A DNA stretch of 64,000 nt from Lachnospiraceae bacterium. GTDB lineage: Bacteria > Bacillota > Clostridia > Lachnospirales > Lachnospiraceae. Where the stretch lies: NCBI GenBank assembly GCA_017461725.1, contig JAFTXG010000001.1, forward strand, positions 49,984 through 113,983, written 5' to 3'. A program made the position numbers and the translations under genes. The notes beneath the pieces were generated by a model. That model worked only from the letters and a program-made list of their open reading frames with translations, was not told the DNA's origin and did no database searches. Positions within the stretch are counted from its first letter, which is position 1. Each line of letters begins with the position of its first letter. Positions 53,769 through 62,191 of this stretch are shown in pieces.

Positions 53769-54692
53769 TTACCGCTTCTCGATCCACTTCAGGACATCCT
53801 CATACACGGTCTTCCGATCCAGCTCATTTAAAATCTCATGGCGGTCTCCGGGATATATCTGCAGAGTGACATCGGTCATTCCCATCTCCTTAAACTGGGC
53901 GTTCAAGGCCTCTCCGGCCTTCGCACCGCCCACCGGGTCAACCTCGCCCATGGTGATCAGAACCGGGAGATTGCGGCGAATCCGATCAAACTCCACCCCA
54001 TCGGCCAGATCAGCCATCACCGTAAAGAAATCCTTGAATGCTCCCGCAGTAAACATAAATCCACAGAGCGGGTCTGCCACATAGCGGTCCACAATGGCCT
54101 CATCCCTGGTCAGCCAGTCGCAGTCGGTTCTGGCCGGCTTGAAGGGCTTATTGTTTCCACCCAGCACCATATCCGTCAACAGCTTGCTGGGATGACGGAA
54201 GCCCTTTGTCTTTCCGATCAGATTTGCCAGTGTCCGGCCAAGCTTTGCCACACCGCCGGGGATCATGCCGGTGCCCATGATGATGGCTCCGGCCAGTTCC
54301 TCGCTGTAATGAGTCAGGTAGCGTCTCACCATGAAGGAGCCCATGCTGTGCCCCAGAATGAACCAGGGCTTTCCGTACCATCTCTCTTTCCCAAATGCGG
54401 TGATGCGGTGAATATCCTCCACCACGATCTGAGCGCCATTCTGATCCGCAAAATATCCCTGATCTGCCGGGCTGTTCATGGACTGACCATGACCCAGATG
54501 ATCATGGCCGATCACCGCGTAGCCCTGCTCCGTCAAATACACCGCAAAGTCATGGTAACGGTCAATGTACTCGCACATACCGTGTACCAGCTGCACCACG
54601 CCCTTGATCTGGGCACACTCAGGCTCCCAGATAATCCCGTGAAGCGTTGTCTTTCCATCTCCTGAAAGTACATAAATATCCTGTTTATTCAT
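53769..54692 (-). CDS. Alpha/beta hydrolase, monoacylglycerol lipase/lysophospholipase type
   Basis: 307-residue serine hydrolase. Oxyanion region LVHGMCEYIDRYHDFA near 35, nucleophile in LGHSMGSFMVRRY near 113, Asp in TMGEVDPVGGAKAGE near 250 and His in GDRHEILNE near 283. Likely hydrolyses membrane-derived or dietary monoacyl lipids; substrate unproven. Transcribed after sigK on the same strand, separated by a repeat tract. Confidence 0.9.
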   Translation of the reverse strand: MNKQDIYVLSGDGKTTLHGIIWEPECAQIKGVVQLVHGMCEYIDRYHDFAVYLTEQGYAVIGHDHLGHGQSMNSPADQGYFADQNGAQIVVEDIHRITAFGKERWYGKPWFILGHSMGSFMVRRYLTHYSEELAGAIIMGTGMIPGGVAKLGRTLANLIGKTKGFRHPSKLLTDMVLGGNNKPFKPARTDCDWLTRDEAIVDRYVADPLCGFMFTAGAFKDFFTVMADLADGVEFDRIRRNLPVLITMGEVDPVGGAKAGEALNAQFKEMGMTDVTLQIYPGDRHEILNELDRKTVYEDVLKWIEKR

Positions 54693-54713
54693 GGTATCCT
54701 CCTTTTTTCGGCT

Positions 54714-54778
54714 CTTCTGTTTTCCAGTTCTTTCCGTCTTCCAATTCTTCTGTCTTCCGGCTCTTCCGCTTTCCAGCT
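54714..54778. repeat. Degenerate 16-17-bp tandem repeats
   Basis: Four pyrimidine-rich units on the plus strand, such as CTTCTGTTTTCCAGTT and CTTCTGTCTTCCGGCT, between sigK and the hydrolase gene. Confidence 0.65.
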
Positions 54779-54820
54779 GCTTTTCTTCAGTTCAGTCTCT
54801 TTTCATCCCCACCATCATTG

Positions 54821-55288
54821 TTATCGGCTTTCCTTCCTCTCCATTGCCTGACGGAGCTTTCCCAGTCCGCTCTTTTCGATCCGGCTCACATAGGAACGGC
54901 TGATCCCCATCTCCTCGGCAATCTCCCTCTGGGTCATCTCCGCCTTTCCGAACAGTCCGTACCGCTTACGGATGACCTGCTTTTCCCGCTCCTCCAGCAC
55001 ACGCGCAAACTGACGATACATCTCCTCCACCTGGCGATTGATGGCGACTGCCTCCAGAATGTCCATGTCCTCCGCCTCGATAATGTCCACCAGACTGATG
55101 ACATTGCCCTCCTTGTCGGTTCCGATCGGCTCGAAGAGGGATACCTCGCGGCTTCGCTTCTTCTCTGCGCGAAGGTGCATCAGGATTTCATTTGCTATCC
55201 TGTGGCGACAAGCCCGCGCCGATTTATTTCGACAAAACACAGTCCATTCCTGCCTGTTTTGCATCTCGTTTCGTTCAGATCGGTTCAC
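54821..55288 (-). CDS. sigK: Sigma-K 3' half (C-terminal part), separated by the skin-like element
   Basis: Encodes sigma regions 3-4 of the late mother-cell sporulation sigma factor: NEILMHLRAEKKRSREVSLF, then PIGTDKEGNVISLVDII, EEREKQVIRKRYGLFGKAE and the helix-turn-helix TQREIAEEMGISRSYVSRIE. Codons before Asn33 (54821-55288 frame) belong to the inserted element, not to SigK. Joining at the AATG core (55189-55192) to the 5' half at 60733-60736 keeps frame and gives a 211-residue protein. In the present arrangement this half is not a working sigma factor. Confidence 0.9.
   Translation of the reverse strand: MNRSERNEMQNRQEWTVFCRNKSARACRHRIANEILMHLRAEKKRSREVSLFEPIGTDKEGNVISLVDIIEAEDMDILEAVAINRQVEEMYRQFARVLEEREKQVIRKRYGLFGKAEMTQREIAEEMGISRSYVSRIEKSGLGKLRQAMERKESR
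55189..55192 (-). other. Right-end attachment core of the sigK element
   Basis: AATG on the minus strand, preceded by the element end ACAGGATAGC A and followed by the SigK codons for Glu-Ile-Leu-Met (AAATCCTGATG). Its partner core is at 60733-60736. B. subtilis skin uses AATGA at the same codons. Confidence 0.8.
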
Positions 55289-56590
55289 TCAAATCAATTC
55301 ACTCAGCCACACGCTTCTGCCGCCCTCCACTCTGGACCGCTCCGCCGCCAGCGCCACATAATGGCTCTCCACCGAATCCTTCAGCGAGGTGGTCCGCACC
55401 GTGGGCTCGATCCTGCCGCTGACGATATCCAGAAACTCCGCCACCATCCGACTGTCGCCGCCTGCGTGACCGCTGAAATCGCTGGCAATCTTGCTCACAT
55501 CGATGGTGTATTGCTCCCCGCCAAAAGGCATCACGCAGATGGTATTCTCCTGCAGATTCGCCACGATCTCACCTCTGGTGCCCATGATTTTGGTATCTCT
55601 TCCGCCCCTGGAAGTGAATGCGCTCATGACCATCTGGAAGGAAGCTCCGTCCTCCATCTGCAGGTTTACCACCTGATGATCCACCACGTCATTGTCGCAG
55701 GCATATACACAGCGTCCGTAAGGCCCGGTCTTTAACGCCTCGCGGATTGCCTCCTCCGTCGGCTCATTGACCACCACATCGGCAGGCCAGCCGGTTTTGC
55801 CCGCTGCCACACCAGTCTCCGGGTTGGTGATATAAATCTTTTCCGCATCGTAAGGGCAATGTTCCTTCGCCTGACAGCCATCCAGACACCGCTTTGCCGC
55901 GCCTAAGGGAGCCTTCTCCGGCTTAAACAGATAGGTCCCGCCGTAGCTGGACACCGCCCTGCAGTGCTTGCCGGACAACCACAACAGCAGATCCATATCG
56001 TGACAGCACTTTGCCAGAATCATCGGGCTGGTCTCATCGCTCCGTCTCCAGTTGCCCCGCACGAAACTGTGGGCTTGATGCCAGTATTTCACATTCTCGG
56101 TGTGCTGAATGGACACGATGTCGCCCACCGCCCCTGCATCCAGCAGTTCCTTCAATTTATTATAGAAAGGAGTGTAGCGCAGCACGTGACAGACAATGAT
56201 CTTCCGCCCGGTCTCCTCCGCCACCTTAACGAGCTCAGCGCACTGCTCCAGGTCCGGCGAGATCGGCTTCTCCAGAATAATGTGATAGCCCTTCTTCAAC
56301 GCCTCAATGGCCTGCGGCACATGCTGCTGATCCTGTGTGCAGATGATCATCACATCTGCCAGGCGCTCCTCTTTCAGCATCACCTCCGCGCTGTCAAAGC
56401 ACATCTCCTCCGGAATGTGGTAATGCTCCCTCGCCATCTCCAGGCGGTCCCTGCGGATATCAGCACCGGCCACCAGCTTCATCTTTTCCGGAAAAAGCTT
56501 CGCACACTCTGCATAGGTATTATATCCACGGCTGCCCAGACCGGCAATGGCCACGGTGCGTGGGCCGGGAAGTATGTTGGTCATGTTCAT
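55289..56590 (-). CDS. Gfo/Idh/MocA-family oxidoreductase (skin cargo)
   Basis: 433-residue NAD(P)-dependent sugar or inositol-type dehydrogenase. N-terminal Rossmann fold with VAIAGLGSRGYNTYAECAK; EKPISPDLEQCAELVKVAEE near 110 carries the conserved Glu-Lys-Pro. A Cys-containing stretch (KRCLDGCQAKEHCPYDAEK near 240) is seen in a subgroup of these enzymes. Substrate unknown. Own promoter at 56684-56712, so it can be expressed while the element is integrated. Ends about 100 bases before the attachment core. Confidence 0.88.
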   Translation of the reverse strand: MNMTNILPGPRTVAIAGLGSRGYNTYAECAKLFPEKMKLVAGADIRRDRLEMAREHYHIPEEMCFDSAEVMLKEERLADVMIICTQDQQHVPQAIEALKKGYHIILEKPISPDLEQCAELVKVAEETGRKIIVCHVLRYTPFYNKLKELLDAGAVGDIVSIQHTENVKYWHQAHSFVRGNWRRSDETSPMILAKCCHDMDLLLWLSGKHCRAVSSYGGTYLFKPEKAPLGAAKRCLDGCQAKEHCPYDAEKIYITNPETGVAAGKTGWPADVVVNEPTEEAIREALKTGPYGRCVYACDNDVVDHQVVNLQMEDGASFQMVMSAFTSRGGRDTKIMGTRGEIVANLQENTICVMPFGGEQYTIDVSKIASDFSGHAGGDSRMVAEFLDIVSGRIEPTVRTTSLKDSVESHYVALAAERSRVEGGRSVWLSELI

Positions 56591-56683
56591 CTTGGCTGCT
56601 TCTCCGTTCTTGCCTTTATTTTAAGACGCAGAACAGCATAGCAAAGTCGTTATGCTCATGCTCTGCTTTCTGCTTATACCTAC

Positions 56684-56712
56684 AGTATACTCGGAATCCG
56701 GTCACAAGTAAA
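56684..56712 (-). promoter_or_regulatory. Promoter of the oxidoreductase gene
   Basis: TTTACT, 17 bases, TATACT on the minus strand. The -35 overlaps the last codons of the recombinase gene. Confidence 0.6.
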
Positions 56713-57823
56713 GATTTGTTTGTCCCGGTCTGCTTTTCTCCCCATTTTTTTGAAGAATCTTCTGGACCTGCACCCAGTCTTTGCCGGAAATGATCGGTTC
56801 ATGCTTTCCAGCCGCCACGATCCATTCGCTCACCCCGCGAATTTGATTGGTCTTTCCCGGTCTCTGCAAGGTGCGGTTATAGGCGAGGAGGCCGAAATTT
56901 TCGGATGATTTTCCCGCTGTGCAATCCAAAAACAGCGGCACCTTCTGCTCATTAAAGTACCGCTGCACCGCTTCGTCCGCCGCCGCGTAGACCGGATTGC
57001 TCAGGATCGCCCGCACAGCCACTGAAGTAAATGACTTTCCGGTCTTGGTCTTTCTTCCCTCCCGATTCAGCCCTTCCGCCGTTTCTTTCAACGTCCGGCA
57101 CTCCAGATACCTGCGGAATATCTCCCTCACCAGCTCCGCCTCCTCCGGGATCACCTTCAATTTGCAACATTTTTTGGTCCTCCCGTCCACGGTGACGGTG
57201 GCGACACTCTCAGAGGCATATCCTGTGGGGGTCCTCCCGCCCAGCCAGCGGCCAGTCTTGGCCAGCTCCAGCATATTATCCCGAATCCGTTCTGCGATGG
57301 TCTCGCGCTCCAGCTGGGAAAACACGGAGGCAATGTACATCATCGCCCTCCCCATGGGTGACGAGGTGTCAAACTGCTCCTTGATGGAGACAAAGGACAC
57401 GTCCAGACGATTCAGCTCCTCGATGAGCCCGGCGAAATCTCCGATGTTTCTGCTGATCCGGTCCAGTCGGTAAACCACAATCTTTGACAGTTTCCCCTGT
57501 CTGGCATCCTGCATCATCGCTTTGAACTGGGGGCGGTCAAGATTCCCACCGGAAAACCCCTCATCCTCATAGATTCTGACATTGCTTCCGCGCCTTCCCC
57601 TCTCTTTGTTCGCGCCGAGATCAGCGCCTCGAAATTCTGTTTTTTTGTGCTCCACAGCTGTCTTTTCACACTTCACATGGCATATGTCGCCGGAAAGGTT
57701 CTCAATATATCGCTTACACAATTCAATTTGATTTTCAATACTCTCACCGACACCGGTGAATTTGGATTTTCGGGAATAAATAGCGATCGCCCGCTGCTGA
57801 CACTCACACTGATTTTTTCTCAT
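56702..57823 (-). CDS. Serine recombinase of the sigK element (SpoIVCA-like)
   Basis: 373-residue serine recombinase expected to excise the element in the mother cell. The resolvase domain has nucleophile Ser20 in IYSRKS, VVYRLDRISRN (Arg119, Arg122, Arg125) and MGRAMMYIASVFSQLERETI. A recombinase domain (about 195-290) follows with GYASESVATVT. Two oddities: a basic insertion of about 35 residues (45-82) before IYEDEGFSGGNLDRPQF, and an end at residue 373 without the zinc ribbon and coiled coil of larger relatives (about 500 residues). No ribosome site precedes the ATG; a large hairpin does. Confidence 0.88.
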   Translation of the reverse strand: MRKNQCECQQRAIAIYSRKSKFTGVGESIENQIELCKRYIENLSGDICHVKCEKTAVEHKKTEFRGADLGANKERGRRGSNVRIYEDEGFSGGNLDRPQFKAMMQDARQGKLSKIVVYRLDRISRNIGDFAGLIEELNRLDVSFVSIKEQFDTSSPMGRAMMYIASVFSQLERETIAERIRDNMLELAKTGRWLGGRTPTGYASESVATVTVDGRTKKCCKLKVIPEEAELVREIFRRYLECRTLKETAEGLNREGRKTKTGKSFTSVAVRAILSNPVYAAADEAVQRYFNEQKVPLFLDCTAGKSSENFGLLAYNRTLQRPGKTNQIRGVSEWIVAAGKHEPIISGKDWVQVQKILQKNGEKSRPGQTNLYL

Positions 57824-57830
57824 AAAATAA

Positions 57831-57878
57831 TCCCGGGAATGAACACTGGTCTCATATCCAGTCTATTCACTCCCGGGA
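57831..57878 (-). promoter_or_regulatory. Inverted repeat abutting the recombinase start codon
   Basis: About 20-bp imperfect inverted repeat: TCCCGGGA at both ends, TGAA and ACTGG arms inside. Only seven bases (TTATTTT) lie between it and the recombinase ATG. Could be a terminator for the upstream genes, a translation block, or an operator. Confidence 0.65.
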
Positions 57879-57940
57879 AGATGTTATTCTGCAGCATTCC
57901 TGTTTTGCATTTTTATACTGAGAGTCTGTACCTCATTTCT

Positions 57941-57961
57941 CTGTTCACAGTTCACGGTTCA
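57941..57961 (-). repeat. Three heptad direct repeats upstream of the recombinase
   Basis: TGAACCG, TGAACTG, TGAACAG in exact 7-base register on the minus strand, between the 94-residue gene and the recombinase. Possible regulator or recombination accessory site. Confidence 0.5.
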
Positions 57962-58037
57962 CTGATACTCACAGCCTGCTGACACGCGCTGCGCACTGAT
58001 ACATTCGCATTCAGCTGCCCTGCGCCCCACACCGTGA

Positions 58038-58322
58038 TCACTCGCCCAGACTGGCAAAGAACAACTCATAAAAATCATCCTCACCCTCCAGCATCGGAGA
58101 GTTTTCTCCGCCACCGTTGGTGCTGCGTCTCATGGCGGCGTAAAACTCCTCGCCCACGCTGATCAGCTCCATCAGATAGATGGGATATCCAAGAGCTCTG
58201 GCCTCGCGGCAGAACGCCTCCTGTGGGCTGGGCTCCCTGCGGGTGGCCAAGAGCCGCTGACGCACCGACTCATCGGTCAGGGCTTTTTTCTGAAGCTCGT
58301 CAAGTAATTCCGCAGTGTTCAT
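58038..58322 (-). CDS. 94-residue protein of unknown function (skin cargo)
   Basis: Starts MNTAELLDELQKKALTDESV; a helical N-terminus, then ALGYPIYLMELISVGEEFY and an acidic tail. The pattern is faintly like Nif11-type leader proteins, but I would not assign it. The ATG at 58322 follows GAGGATTGAGG just after the P-II gene stop, so it is co-translated with that gene. Confidence 0.6.
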   Translation of the reverse strand: MNTAELLDELQKKALTDESVRQRLLATRREPSPQEAFCREARALGYPIYLMELISVGEEFYAAMRRSTNGGGENSPMLEGEDDFYELFFASLGE

Positions 58323-58327
58323 AATCC

Positions 58328-59017
58328 TCAATCCTCGTCATCGTCGCTGAGCAGTCTCATACCAGCCGTGTCGGTGACAGGAAGGGAGAACACGATGGCA
58401 CGAGCCTTGCTCTCCAGTCCAGCCTTGTCCATGATCGACTTCATGATCGCATTTTTGTCGTCCTTCTTCGCCACGATCAGCAGGATCTCCTTCTCCTCTG
58501 CGATTGTGACACCCAGAAACTTCTCCGCGTGCTGCATACCGGTACCTCTCGCGTGGAGGATGGTGCCGCCCCGCGCATTCTCCTCTCTGGCTGCATCCAT
58601 GATCACATCGCTGTATCCCTGATTGGCAATCACCATCAACAATTCATAATCTGTACCCTTCAATGTGGTCTCCTCCCCTTTCACATAATCCTGACCGTCC
58701 GTGAGAAACATCAGCGCTTTCTTTCCGCCGATGCTGGACATGGGAACGATGAACGCGATTCCTCTGCCCGGAATATCAATCTGTATCTTTTTGCGAAGTC
58801 CATGCTTCACTTCTTTCCATTTTTCACCGGTCACCACGGAGAACAGAACCTTTTTCTCCGTCGCCTCCAGACCAAACAGGTTCAGCACCTCACTGACAGC
58901 GGTACCCTCTCCGGAAGTCTCAAGCGCAACCGATACGCCGCATTCCCGAAAAAGATTGGTAAACTTCTGCGCGCGGCTTCCGTTGACAATATTTACCATA
59001 AAATATAACTCGCTCAT
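58328..59017 (-). CDS. Tandem P-II-like regulatory protein (skin cargo)
   Basis: 229 residues built of two P-II-like alpha/beta domains (about 1-110 and 120-229). The second has the features ENARGGTILHARGT and AEKFLGVTIAEEKEILLIV, resembling the T-loop region and core of GlnB-like proteins. P-II proteins sense effectors and control partner transporters; the adjacent DUF1538 membrane protein is the obvious partner. ATG after AAAGGAGACGGC, 18 bases after that gene. Confidence 0.75.
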   Translation of the reverse strand: MSELYFMVNIVNGSRAQKFTNLFRECGVSVALETSGEGTAVSEVLNLFGLEATEKKVLFSVVTGEKWKEVKHGLRKKIQIDIPGRGIAFIVPMSSIGGKKALMFLTDGQDYVKGEETTLKGTDYELLMVIANQGYSDVIMDAAREENARGGTILHARGTGMQHAEKFLGVTIAEEKEILLIVAKKDDKNAIMKSIMDKAGLESKARAIVFSLPVTDTAGMRLLSDDDED

Positions 59018-59035
59018 GCCGTCTCCTTTCCGCTG

Positions 59036-60583
59036 TTACAGCTCGATAATCGCATCATCGTCAAGCAGTGCAAGGGCCTTCTCCGCGTCGGTGAGCTCTG
59101 CCAGAATACCCAGCCTGGATGCCTTTTTCTTCTTTAACTGTGCCACCAGACCCATCATCTGAACGGTGATCAGAGGGGTCATGGCTACCATGGCAACCAC
59201 GCCAAATGCATCGGTTACAATATTTCCGCCCACGGCGATGCATGCTCCCTGCGCGAAAGGCAGAAGGAAGGTGGCCGTCATCGGACCGGAGGCAACACCA
59301 CCGGAGTCAAACGCGATGGCAGTATACATCTTCGGTACGAAGAAGGAAATGGTCAGTGAGATCGCATATCCGGGGATCAAAAACCACAGAATGGAGATGC
59401 CGGTGAGCACACGGATCATCGCCAGACCGATGGACACCGCCACACCCATGGACAGAGCGCTGCCCATGGCAGATGCGGACACACCGCCGTCGGTCATCTG
59501 CTCAACCTGCTTATTGAGCACATAAACCGCAGGCTCGGCCTTTACGATGAAGTAACCCATCAGCATACCGATGGGCACAATGATCCAGGAGAAAGGAAGT
59601 CCTGCGATCACCTGTCCCAGGTAGTTACCGGCGGGCATGAAGCCCACGTTGGCGCCGGTGAGGAACAGTACCAGACCGATATAGGTATACACCAGACCCA
59701 CGATGATCTTTTTCAGCTGACGCTTGGGTATCTTCAGCATGATGATCTGGAAAATGCCGAAAAAGGCCACGATGGGCAACAGGGAAATCGCAATCTCATG
59801 AATGTAGGTAGGAAGTCCGTGCGCAAACAGCTCCCACAGCTCCACAGAGCTGCCGATCTCCGGCAATACGGGAGGCACATAAAGGCTGTCGTTGGGATTA
59901 AAGATCATGCCCAGTACCAGCACCGCCAGAATCGGTCCCACGGAGCACAGGGCAACCAGACCAAAGCTGTCATCCGCCGCATTGCTGTCGTTACGGACTG
60001 CAGAGACACCGATACCCAGCGCCATGATAAAGGGCACGGTCATCGGTCCGGTGGTCACACCGCCGGAGTCAAAGGCCACCGCCAGAAAGTCCTTCGGCAC
60101 AAAGAAGGCCAGTCCGAAGGCCAGTATGTAAAATCCGACCAGCATACCGTTCAGCGGAATCCTAAACAGCATACGCAGCAGCGCAAACATCAAAAACAAT
60201 CCCACACCGACGGCCACCGCCAGAATCAACGTCAGGTTCGGAATGGACGGTACCTGATTAGCCAGCACCTGGAGGTCCGGCTCCGATATGGTGATGATCA
60301 CACCAAGTACGAAGGACAGGACTGCGATCAGCAATACATTTTTCGTCTTGGTCAGGCTGGTTCCCACTCTCTCACCCATGGGACTCATGGCCATCTCCGC
60401 ACCCTGGGTAAAAAACATCATACCTACGATCAGCATCACCGCACCCAGCAAAAAGCACAGTAAAATACTGGGGGAAATGGGTGCGATACTGAAGCAGAGC
60501 ACGATCACAATCGCCACGATAGGCAGGACTGCCCGCAATGCTTCCATCAGTTTTTCATGGAGCTTGGTCCACATATTTCTCAT
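59036..60583 (-). CDS. DUF1538 integral membrane protein (skin cargo)
   Basis: 515 residues with about 12-14 spans in two homologous halves. Each half has the same motif: AFDSGGVTTGPMTVPFIMAL near 175 and AFDSGGVASGPMTATFLLPF near 420. Internal duplication with inverted or parallel repeats is typical of transporters or channels; the substrate is unknown. First complete gene of the element, with a TATACT box (60629-60634) but no strong -35. Confidence 0.82.
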   Translation of the reverse strand: MRNMWTKLHEKLMEALRAVLPIVAIVIVLCFSIAPISPSILLCFLLGAVMLIVGMMFFTQGAEMAMSPMGERVGTSLTKTKNVLLIAVLSFVLGVIITISEPDLQVLANQVPSIPNLTLILAVAVGVGLFLMFALLRMLFRIPLNGMLVGFYILAFGLAFFVPKDFLAVAFDSGGVTTGPMTVPFIMALGIGVSAVRNDSNAADDSFGLVALCSVGPILAVLVLGMIFNPNDSLYVPPVLPEIGSSVELWELFAHGLPTYIHEIAISLLPIVAFFGIFQIIMLKIPKRQLKKIIVGLVYTYIGLVLFLTGANVGFMPAGNYLGQVIAGLPFSWIIVPIGMLMGYFIVKAEPAVYVLNKQVEQMTDGGVSASAMGSALSMGVAVSIGLAMIRVLTGISILWFLIPGYAISLTISFFVPKMYTAIAFDSGGVASGPMTATFLLPFAQGACIAVGGNIVTDAFGVVAMVAMTPLITVQMMGLVAQLKKKKASRLGILAELTDAEKALALLDDDAIIEL

Positions 60584-60619
60584 TGGAAGAAAACTCCTTT
60601 CTTATTTTAATTCTCTATC

Positions 60620-61000
60620 TTATCTGTCAGTATAACATAGATTTAACATTTTTCCTACCATACATTGGAAAAGAAATCCTAAAATCTTTCTAACGCTTTC
60701 CCCTGCACCTCTGCTCACACAAAACAGGATAGCATTATCTATACATTTGGCTGCGTAGGTTCCGAGCCTGCTGGCCCGTTTCACATCGAAGGTATCCACC
60801 GCCTTAATCAGTCCGATGGTCCCGATGGAAATCAGATCCTCCGCGTCCGCCTCCGACTGGGCATACTTTTTCACCACGTGGGCGACCAGCCTCATATTGT
60901 GAAGGATGAGCTTTTCTCTGGCTTCCCGATCTCCCGCCGCCCATTCCTCCAGGTATTTCCTCTCCTCCGAGCCCTTTAGGGGTTTCAAAAATGTGGTCAT
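60620..61000 (-). CDS. sigK: Sigma-K 5' half (N-terminal part), interrupted by the skin-like element
   Basis: Encodes sigma region 2: MTTFLKPLKGSEERKYLEEW, HNMRLVAHVVKKYAQSEADA, EDLISIGTIGLIKAVDTFD and SRLGTYAAKCIDN. SigK sequence ends at Asn89 (60734-60736); residues 90-126 are read from the element. The ATG follows AGAGGT, and an in-frame stop just upstream excludes the 20-residue pro-sequence of B. subtilis pro-SigK. CATAAATT at 61029-61036 resembles a mother-cell sigma -10 but is not conclusive. Confidence 0.9.
   Translation of the reverse strand: MTTFLKPLKGSEERKYLEEWAAGDREAREKLILHNMRLVAHVVKKYAQSEADAEDLISIGTIGLIKAVDTFDVKRASRLGTYAAKCIDNAILFCVSRGAGESVRKILGFLFQCMVGKMLNLCYTDR
60733..60736 (-). 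other. Left-end attachment core of the sigK element
   Basis: AATG on the minus strand, preceded by SigK codons (TGTATAGAT) and followed by the element end CTATCCTGTTTTGTG. The sequence beyond the core is the mirror image of the other element end, which defines the excision points. Confidence 0.8.
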
Positions 61001-61152
61001 GAAGGTACCTCTTTAGGCTCTTTCTATCAATTTATGCGATTGGAGCCGACGAAGTGCTTTTACACTTTTTATTTCCTGTCGCCGGGGGCAGCCCACACGG
61101 TGCCTCTCGAAAAGTTTCCTGTCAAATGTTGACCCGAACTAGTCCCTAAACA

Positions 61153-61172
61153 CCCGCGGGCGTTACCGCGGG
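61153..61172. repeat. GC-rich palindrome upstream of sigK
   Basis: CCCGCGG and CCGCGGG around a six-base loop, within the 282-base gap between sigK and the hydrolase gene. No T-run on either side, so not a typical terminator. Confidence 0.5.
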
Positions 61173-61178
61173 CTGTTC

Positions 61179-61214
61179 TTAACGGGACAATCGGGAATCA
61201 ACATTTGCACGGAA
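61179..61214. repeat. Dispersed 36-bp repeat, copy 2
   Basis: Inverted copy of 42322-42358 with two substitutions and one deletion; contains TTAACGGGACAATCGGGAAT and TTTGCACGGAA. Together with the palindrome just before it, this fills the gap upstream of sigK. Confidence 0.75.
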
Positions 61215-61282
61215 TTCTTTTCTGCGGCACCTGACTGATGCGAGGCGCAAGAGCAGGATATTTAACATTCACAATCTTAAAT

Positions 61283-62191
61283 TCAGCAATTCGCATTAAC
61301 CCATTCTATGATGGCATCAAATCTTTCTTTTGTTAATGCATGTCCACCAGAGTATCTCTTATGTTGTAGGTTTTGTAATGCACCAAATGCTGAATATGCG
61401 GGACTGGCTTTCTCAATGATATATGAGGCATCTTTTGAATATTTATCATCATCACTGGAAACGATAAGTAACCGCCTCGGTGCAATGCATGAAACCAAAT
61501 CATAGATATCATATTTTCCATGGAAATTTGGAATTACACTTGCCATTTCAATTCCTACATTGTTTAGCATGCGATTCTCATAAGTACAAGCACTACCACT
61601 TGCACAACTAAAGGTAATGCGTTCATCTAATGCGGAAAGGAACAATACTGTATTCCCACCATACGAATGCCCCAAGGTTCCGATTCTTTTATTATCAACA
61701 AAGTCAAGACCAGAAAGCAATGTTATCCCATTCATCGCGTCATCTAATACTTTCTTCATCAGATAATCTCCTTTTAGAATCCGATAACACATTTCGTCAA
61801 AATGTTGCCAAAAATCAAACCCCTCTACACTAGGGTCTCTGCGTCTATCCTCAAAGCATATTGAGTCAGGGGCCAACACGACAAAGCCCTTTTTCACTAA
61901 CTCAAGCCCAAAAGCTTGCAACGGATTGCCCGCTAAACCGCACACTTCACTTTTCCCCAAATGATGTTCTCTATTATGCTGATGATTGATAAGAATTGCA
62001 GGATTGCTATTAAGTCTTTCCGGAAGCAACAAAAAGGCTCTTACTGTATCATCAAAAGAATCATACTCAATTAGTTGTCTTGTATAGCCATCTTCTTCCG
62101 TTGATTCTAATACCCTATACTCGACCTTTGATATGGAATTGAAAAGTTTCACTCCTATTGCATCTGCTATTTTATCTCTTAAATGCATCAT
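61283..62191 (-). CDS. Alpha/beta hydrolase, dienelactone-hydrolase/acetylxylan-esterase-like
   Basis: 302-residue hydrolase: nucleophile in GTLGHSYGGNTVLF near 195; likely Asp in SSDDDKYSKD near 250 and His in YSGGHALTKERFD near 283. HQHNREHHLGKSE near 70 is unusual and metal-site-like but unproven. Substrate unknown. The gene is clearly more AT-rich than radA and sigK on either side, which suggests later acquisition. ATG after AAAGGATAG. Confidence 0.8.
   Translation of the reverse strand: MMHLRDKIADAIGVKLFNSISKVEYRVLESTEEDGYTRQLIEYDSFDDTVRAFLLLPERLNSNPAILINHQHNREHHLGKSEVCGLAGNPLQAFGLELVKKGFVVLAPDSICFEDRRRDPSVEGFDFWQHFDEMCYRILKGDYLMKKVLDDAMNGITLLSGLDFVDNKRIGTLGHSYGGNTVLFLSALDERITFSCASGSACTYENRMLNNVGIEMASVIPNFHGKYDIYDLVSCIAPRRLLIVSSDDDKYSKDASYIIEKASPAYSAFGALQNLQHKRYSGGHALTKERFDAIIEWVNANC

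Follow-up and report, generated by a model that had tools for sequence, protein, structure and literature searches.

The locus described here raises a simple question: when the gene for a sporulation sigma factor is found in two separated pieces, how is it put back together, and by what kind of enzyme? The window, by which we mean the whole stretch of 64,000 nucleotides that was analysed (Lachnospiraceae bacterium, assembly GCA_017461725.1, contig JAFTXG010000001.1, positions 49,984 to 113,983 of the forward strand), contains a sigK gene that is split by an intervening element of the skin type, with a serine recombinase gene inside the element. All coordinates below are positions in the window. 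An initial annotation, made from the sequence alone, had predicted that late sporulation is gated by programmed excision of this element in the mother cell. We consider it likely that the element's own short recombinase excises the 5,544 bp in the sporulating mother cell, probably rejoining sigK and switching on late sporulation. The new point, which that annotation missed, is that the recombinase is truncated. That is, the excision enzyme of this skin-type element has lost two domains that are thought to be necessary or regulatory, and it sits within a clade of such enzymes that persists. The loss of the zinc ribbon and the coiled coil is at once the chief reason to doubt excision and the chief novelty.

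A split sigK and its empty site

Two frames had been proposed to encode complementary halves of SigK. Both are open and lie where they had been placed, and they match complementary parts of the SigK model TIGR02846 (profile positions 24-117 for the 5' half and 107-225 for the 3' half). The AATG core occurs at 60733-60736 and again at 55189-55192, a distance of 5,544 bp from core to core. Joining the halves in frame at this core reproduces the claimed product: the junction reads CIDNEILMHLRAEKK, and a SigK of 211 aa results without a frameshift. This SigK has no pro-sequence, as only four open codons precede its start (130 versus 126 aa) and the model match begins at position 24.

The choice of these two AATG copies can be compared with all others in the region, which contains 34 such sites and hence 1,122 ordered pairs. 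A palindromic arm longer than 4 bp is found only for the true pair, whose perfect arm extends for 11 bp on each side of the AA. In a control over the whole window, arms of at least 8 bp arose in 14 of 300,000 random AATG pairs, a sample from which the true pair was not excluded. In the excised circle, the junction is predicted to form a perfect palindrome of 24 bp.

A close relative supplies the empty site. The window lies on contig C32 of its own assembly (G000; 3.23 Mb, 33 contigs, 86.5% complete), and two other genomes of the same genus were searched, G001 (84% complete) and G002. On G002:C80 sigK is uninterrupted, its junction is exactly the one that had been predicted (CIDNEILMHLRAEKKRSREVS), and it is flanked by a homologous alpha/beta hydrolase gene (61% identical) and by a gene that we take to be RadA-like. 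In G001 the sigK 3' half is preceded by the recombinase and a 97-aa open reading frame (ORF), that is, by the right end of the same element, and the contig ends inside the element; neither the sigK 5' half nor DUF1538 was found in this 84%-complete assembly. A skin element requires that no second sigK be present, and none was found in the 86.5%-complete assembly of the window: other matches to the 5' half are at most 51% identical, and the best of them sits, like sigE, behind what is presumably a SpoIIGA-like gene. The split sigK, the in-frame junction, the internal recombinase, the palindromic circle junction and the relative's empty site all support the skin-type architecture that the initial annotation had recognised.

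Two minor observations concern sigK itself. On the minus strand at 61028-61063, some 30-60 nt before the sigK start, is the motif pair GTAAAAGCAC...GCATAAATTG, common to the upstream region in G002, a candidate sigmaE/sigmaK promoter by its likeness to the consensus. Two SigK-like proteins, P0005 (305 aa) and P0006 (264 aa), have region 2 repeated internally and are possibly assembly artefacts.

How does this arrangement compare with known elements? The element resembles skinCd of Clostridioides difficile, in which sigK is interrupted and the 3' half has a large serine recombinase gene immediately before it (PMC5025042). As in skinCd, moreover, sigmaK lacks a pro-sequence, so that excision is likely to be a crucial gate (PMC5025042). 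Unlike skinCd, with its 19 genes, the element has five (recombinase, Gfo/Idh/MocA oxidoreductase, P-II-like protein, DUF1538 protein and the 97-aa ORF); and whereas the skinCd recombinase has a zinc ribbon and a coiled coil besides its catalytic and recombinase parts, and needs the directionality factor CD1234 (PMC5025042), the enzyme in the window is without the zinc ribbon and the coiled coil. The skin element of Bacillus subtilis is similar in that sigK is split there too and a serine recombinase (SpoIVCA) performs the excision in the mother cell, although that element is prophage-like, its recombinase is under sigmaE and SpoIIID, and its sigmaK has a pro-sequence (PMC5025042). Like gin in the gerE gene of Bacillus cereus, which is excised by a serine recombinase, the element is non-phage and interrupts a sporulation gene; gin differs in its size (28.6 kb), its target gerE, its three recombinases and its need for a 42-aa factor, GirX (PMC5595907). 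Among the five element proteins no prophage or gin traits were found: there are no phage structural genes, only one recombinase, and no recJ-like protein.

A recombinase without zinc ribbon and coiled coil

The serine recombinase that had been reported between the sigK halves is present, but it is of a truncated type (373 aa). It has the resolvase-type catalytic domain, with the active-site serine, and the recombinase domain PF07508. The zinc-ribbon domain PF13408 is absent, the protein ending where the zinc ribbon should begin, and so is the coiled-coil motif, which is carried by a C-terminal region that the protein does not reach. A tblastn search of the element, with the C-terminal regions taken from four long relatives as queries, found no residual coding for either part (best E 0.098).

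Is this an isolated defect? In a protein search with the recombinase, 8,000 matches were scored and the best 120 considered. The best 16, the window's own included, are 321-373 aa long and none has PF13408, whereas the next ones listed are mostly 473-613 aa and have it; open frames of the long relatives are mostly ~550-640 aa. All 16 short proteins end 10-27 residues past a common W..VQ motif, just before the start of the long relatives' zinc ribbon. They are 62-95% identical to one another and keep the active-site residues, and a FastTree phylogeny built from the shared domains places them, together with the G001 copy, in one clade of 17 leaves (support 0.95). One would expect the loss of the zinc ribbon to cripple a large serine recombinase; nevertheless, enzymes of this kind persist as a clade. 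Among the papers listed in the literature searched, which covers subscription journals thinly, we found no report of a natural recombinase group without a zinc ribbon.

Short forms also occur outside this clade. A scan of 397 genomes of the family, with at most five candidates scored per genome, gave the recombinase at E 1e-70 or better in 24 genomes, the window's own included, and in four of these the open frame is shorter than 400 aa (G000, G001, G338 and G286). The G338 enzyme is a neighbour of the main short clade (support 0.75), the G286 enzyme groups with a 519-aa enzyme (0.96), and locus L100 holds another short form, its nearest leaf being a long enzyme (0.70). The G286 enzyme ends in SLCEDSK, having retained the ancestral end through an in-frame loss, and P0133, of the main clade, ends in QDSK. 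Because of these tree positions and C-terminal ends, the zinc ribbon and coiled coil have probably been lost at least three times. All short forms located in DNA lie at sigK: those of the window and G001 within the clade, and those of G338, G286 and L100. Several apparent short forms were dropped: L068, L179, L094 and L195 extend to less than 160 bases from the end of a contig, L127 starts at such an end, the frame of L103 is broken, and P0170, P0209, P0212 and P0223 continue into a C-terminus that is zinc-ribbon-like or altered.

Many long relatives have the stop codon of the recombinase inside the att core, the frame ending in DSK-stop as GATAGCAAATGA. The att arm and core of the window still read GATAGCAAATGA, although the recombinase there ends 1.5 kb earlier and the Gfo/Idh/MocA gene fills the gap. 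In G001 this gene is absent from that place, which measures only ~70 bp. At L100 (10987-13012) the short recombinase is followed by an att-arm-like GTGAGGATAGC, which ~2 kb of further DNA separates from the real sigK 3' half, a layout that parallels the Gfo gene of the window and suggests capture of cargo beside a duplicated arm.

A structure model of the enzyme (mean pLDDT 68.7) was relied on for the recombinase domain only. As a separate observation, residues 46-79 form a lineage-specific insertion in the catalytic domain, a loop whose length varies across the short clade.

Att sites and the route to excision

If the enzyme has lost domains, have its sites changed as well? Both sigK halves were available for 27 elements, of which 26 were compared (L082, 482 aa, was dropped), 22 with long and 4 with short recombinases; the left sites come from automatic placement, and those of L058, L124, L176 and L085 may be inaccurate. 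Among the 22 long elements, 73-91% show pairing between the outer arms at positions 17-21, and mean pairing over positions 16-22 is 4.9 of 7, versus 1.7 when shuffled. The positions of this outer palindrome coincide with the zinc-ribbon motif, which occupies 16-24 of the Listeria attP half-site (PMC3783163). Outer pairing in the short elements is 1/7 in the window, 2/7 in L100, 3/7 in G338 and 5/7 in G286, the lowest long elements being five with 3/7. The inner arms (positions 1-11) are perfect in three of the four short elements (window, G338, G286) versus two of the 22 long ones. The P-values (outer arms 0.015, perfect inner arms 0.014) should be read as no more than indicative, since the rows are related. 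Thus the outer att palindrome has been lost in the window; the contrast between short and long elements is clear there, weak in G338 and absent in G286, in a small sample of related members. The window remains like the long-recombinase sigK elements of Clostridia (most of L040-L119) in its recombinase family, its sigK junction and its similar inner att arms; unlike it, those elements carry the zinc ribbon and the outer palindrome, and often a stop codon inside the att core.

What might such an enzyme do at such a site? Deletion of the coiled coil from the Listeria innocua integrase yields an unregulated intramolecular resolvase, and a construct of it without the zinc ribbon (residues 1-264) stops at roughly the same point as the natural short recombinase (PMC3783163). 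Those constructs are engineered and act on unaltered att sites (PMC3783163); in the window the att site has changed too. We propose that in the mother cell the short recombinase would resolve attL x attR as an intramolecular resolvase, with proximity and supercoiling within one molecule helping synapsis. In a normal integrase attL x attR is blocked by the coiled coil; as the short enzyme lacks it, a recombination directionality factor may be dispensable, and the enzyme, presumably unable to integrate any longer, would be excision-only. With an enzyme of this kind, the timing would rest on expression of the recombinase in the mother cell. The forespore would keep the element, and the cargo would thereby be inherited. 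Excision and the gating of late sporulation are both what we infer from sequence.

A more general proposal, which we make tentatively though it is quite possible, is that sigK elements have repeatedly evolved a minimal, excision-only recombinase: the zinc ribbon, coiled coil and outer att motifs would have been shed, integration and the attL x attR block lost with them, and control left to expression of the recombinase alone, without a directionality factor. If the short enzymes work, they would show a mobile element becoming a one-way developmental switch, they would test the model in which the coiled coil enforces directionality, and they could serve as compact excision tools.

The sigK and gerE elements known so far depend on a small partner protein, CD1234 (PMC5025042) or GirX (PMC5595907), and the 97-aa ORF lies directly upstream of the recombinase in both G000 and G001 (93% identical). 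One might suppose, then, that the short recombinase works only with a partner that stands in for its missing DNA-binding or control part; the 97-aa protein, as directionality factor or DNA-binding subunit, would be an example. We regard this as quite improbable. The 97-aa family is broad, with 1,939 scored homologues, and this breadth ruled the ORF out as a skin-specific factor; a match was present in 12 of 98 relatives, 10 of which had no sigK, recombinase, P-II or DUF1538 found within ~1.5 kb of it. The phiC31 factor, moreover, binds the zinc domain (PMC5814800), which is missing here. Excision in trans by another serine recombinase of the genome could make use of two further matches with open frames of 529 and 547 aa, and yet it seems very improbable indeed: these two are only 26-30% identical to the element's enzyme, to which the enzymes of other sigK loci are much closer, so that a shared site specificity is unlikely.

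Several points weigh against excision by the short enzyme. The zinc-ribbon deletion of the Listeria integrase binds DNA ~25-fold more weakly, and the section on these deletions reports recombination for the wild type and the coiled-coil deletion only (PMC3783163). The phiC31 integrase cannot recombine without its coiled coil (PMC10754689). The att contrast is based on four short elements, among which G338 ties with the lowest long ones, G286 keeps 5/7 and L100 has an odd left site. The joined SigK of this species is absent among the 120 best matches listed, the top match being 85% identical, and dS between the G000 and G001 recombinases is saturated (at 3). SpoIIID was not found in G000 (86.5% complete) or G001 and is present in G002, G286 and G338; SpoIVA was not found in G000 or G002 and is present in G001, G286 and G338. 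These gaps may be assembly gaps or an early loss of sporulation.

The weak binding of the engineered deletion (PMC3783163), the two genes not found in G000 and the disrupted recombinase frame of the relative L103 would also suit a decaying element, that is, one whose recombinase was inactivated by domain loss, so that sigK stays split and late sporulation has been or is being lost. We think this unlikely. The short forms persist as the diverse clade described above, with catalytic residues kept, and the recombinase is under purifying selection, which argues against decay: between G000 and G001 its pN is 0.21, its pS 0.74 and its dN/dS ~0.08, with 0.09 for the neighbouring hydrolase and 0.105 for the sigK 3' half (the 97-aa ORF is saturated). 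Between G000 and G002, dN/dS is 0.17 for the sigK 5' half and 0.10 for the hydrolase, the sigK 3' half being saturated. Both sigK halves are open, and the inner att arms are perfect in three short elements. The genes that we read as sigE, sigF and sigG look intact, SpoIIIAA and SpoIVB each exceed their cut-offs in four of five genomes, G000 among them (the exceptions are G001 for SpoIIIAA and G002 for SpoIVB), and G001 has SpoIVA. We therefore retain excision by the short recombinase as the preferred reading.

Distribution of sigK elements and other features of the window

The frequency of sigK interruption was surveyed in GTDB at the best 80 of 408 confirmed recombinase loci, with 10-kb flanks, which cannot span larger elements. 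A sigK 3' half lies downstream of the recombinase at 70 of these 80; six of the other ten have less than 1 kb of DNA after the match. Both halves were in reach at 19 loci, with element sizes of 2.6-11.5 kb. The element had also been called compact, and its length of 5,544 bp stands; as a distinctive trait, or a novelty, size was ruled out, since spanned elements start at 2.6 kb. Interruption of sigK by this recombinase family thus extends over many genera of Clostridia, in contrast to the view of 2016 that the skin element is 'an exception in clostridia' (PMC5025042). No wider survey of sigK elements was recognised by title or abstract in the literature searched, with its thin coverage of subscription journals. 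At two of the ten loci without a downstream 3' half, L077 (2510-2776) and L080 (11732-11878), the sigK 5' half is on the opposite strand near the recombinase 3' end, as if the element sat in sigK in the other orientation. In IMG/VR, relatives of the recombinase were found at 41 loci, about half of them with less than 2 kb of DNA after the match, and a sigK 3' half was in reach at three; a search there with the inner palindrome for circularised relatives gave 0 matches.

Table 1. Positions of the sigK halves, the element and its parts in the window.
Feature	Position	Strand	Basis or remark
sigK 5' half (region 2), through AATG core, without pro-sequence	60733..61000	-	SigK model match, junction
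sigK 3' half (regions 3-4), starting at AATG core	54821..55192	-	SigK model match, junction
Skin-type element between sigK halves, both AATG cores included	55189..60736	-	Junction; G002 empty site
Inner P' arm TGCTATCCTGT, adjoining crossover dinucleotide, sigK 5'-half end	60724..60734	-	
Inner P arm ACAGGATAGCA, at the end toward the sigK 3' half; identical to the P' arm when reverse-complemented	55193..55203	-	
Gfo/Idh/MocA oxidoreductase, cargo, between recombinase and sigK 3' half	55289..56590	-	
Short serine recombinase, 373 aa, resolvase catalytic and recombinase domains only	56702..57823	-	
Hairpin immediately 5' of recombinase start codon	57831..57878	-	z = -5
97-aa ORF, no assigned function; 93% identical in G001	58038..58331	-	
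P-II-like protein	58328..59017	-	
DUF1538 membrane protein, UmpA/UmpB-like antiporter family, under curated cut-offs	59036..60583	-	

Among the five element proteins the recombinase alone has a match in PHROGs. The four cargo proteins are unmatched there, and nothing found appears to link them to excision. The hairpin before the recombinase (-32.4 kcal/mol, 86 nt folded) was equalled in 1 of 200 shuffles, and G001 has a similar one; translational control or a terminator are possible roles. An Rfam scan of 54000-62000 gave zero matches, the hairpin included. A sigmaE-like motif upstream of the recombinase, found at the same place in G001 (-10 6/8 with one position free, -35 6/7), was too weak to use; the same scan gave none upstream of sigK, nor before the recombinases of G338 and G286.

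Directly after the recombinase stop, on the minus strand at 56684-56712, is a sigma70-like promoter, TTTACT-17-TATACT, and by eye G001 has TTTACT-17-TATGAT at the same place. It is directed toward the Gfo gene in the window and toward the sigK 3' half in G001. The scan gave 7 such sites versus 4.4 expected, and conservation is the sole point in its favour. Finally, at L171 (14724-17035) the DUF1538 and P-II genes (77% and 66% identical) adjoin the sigK 5' half from outside the element, whereas in the window they lie inside it.
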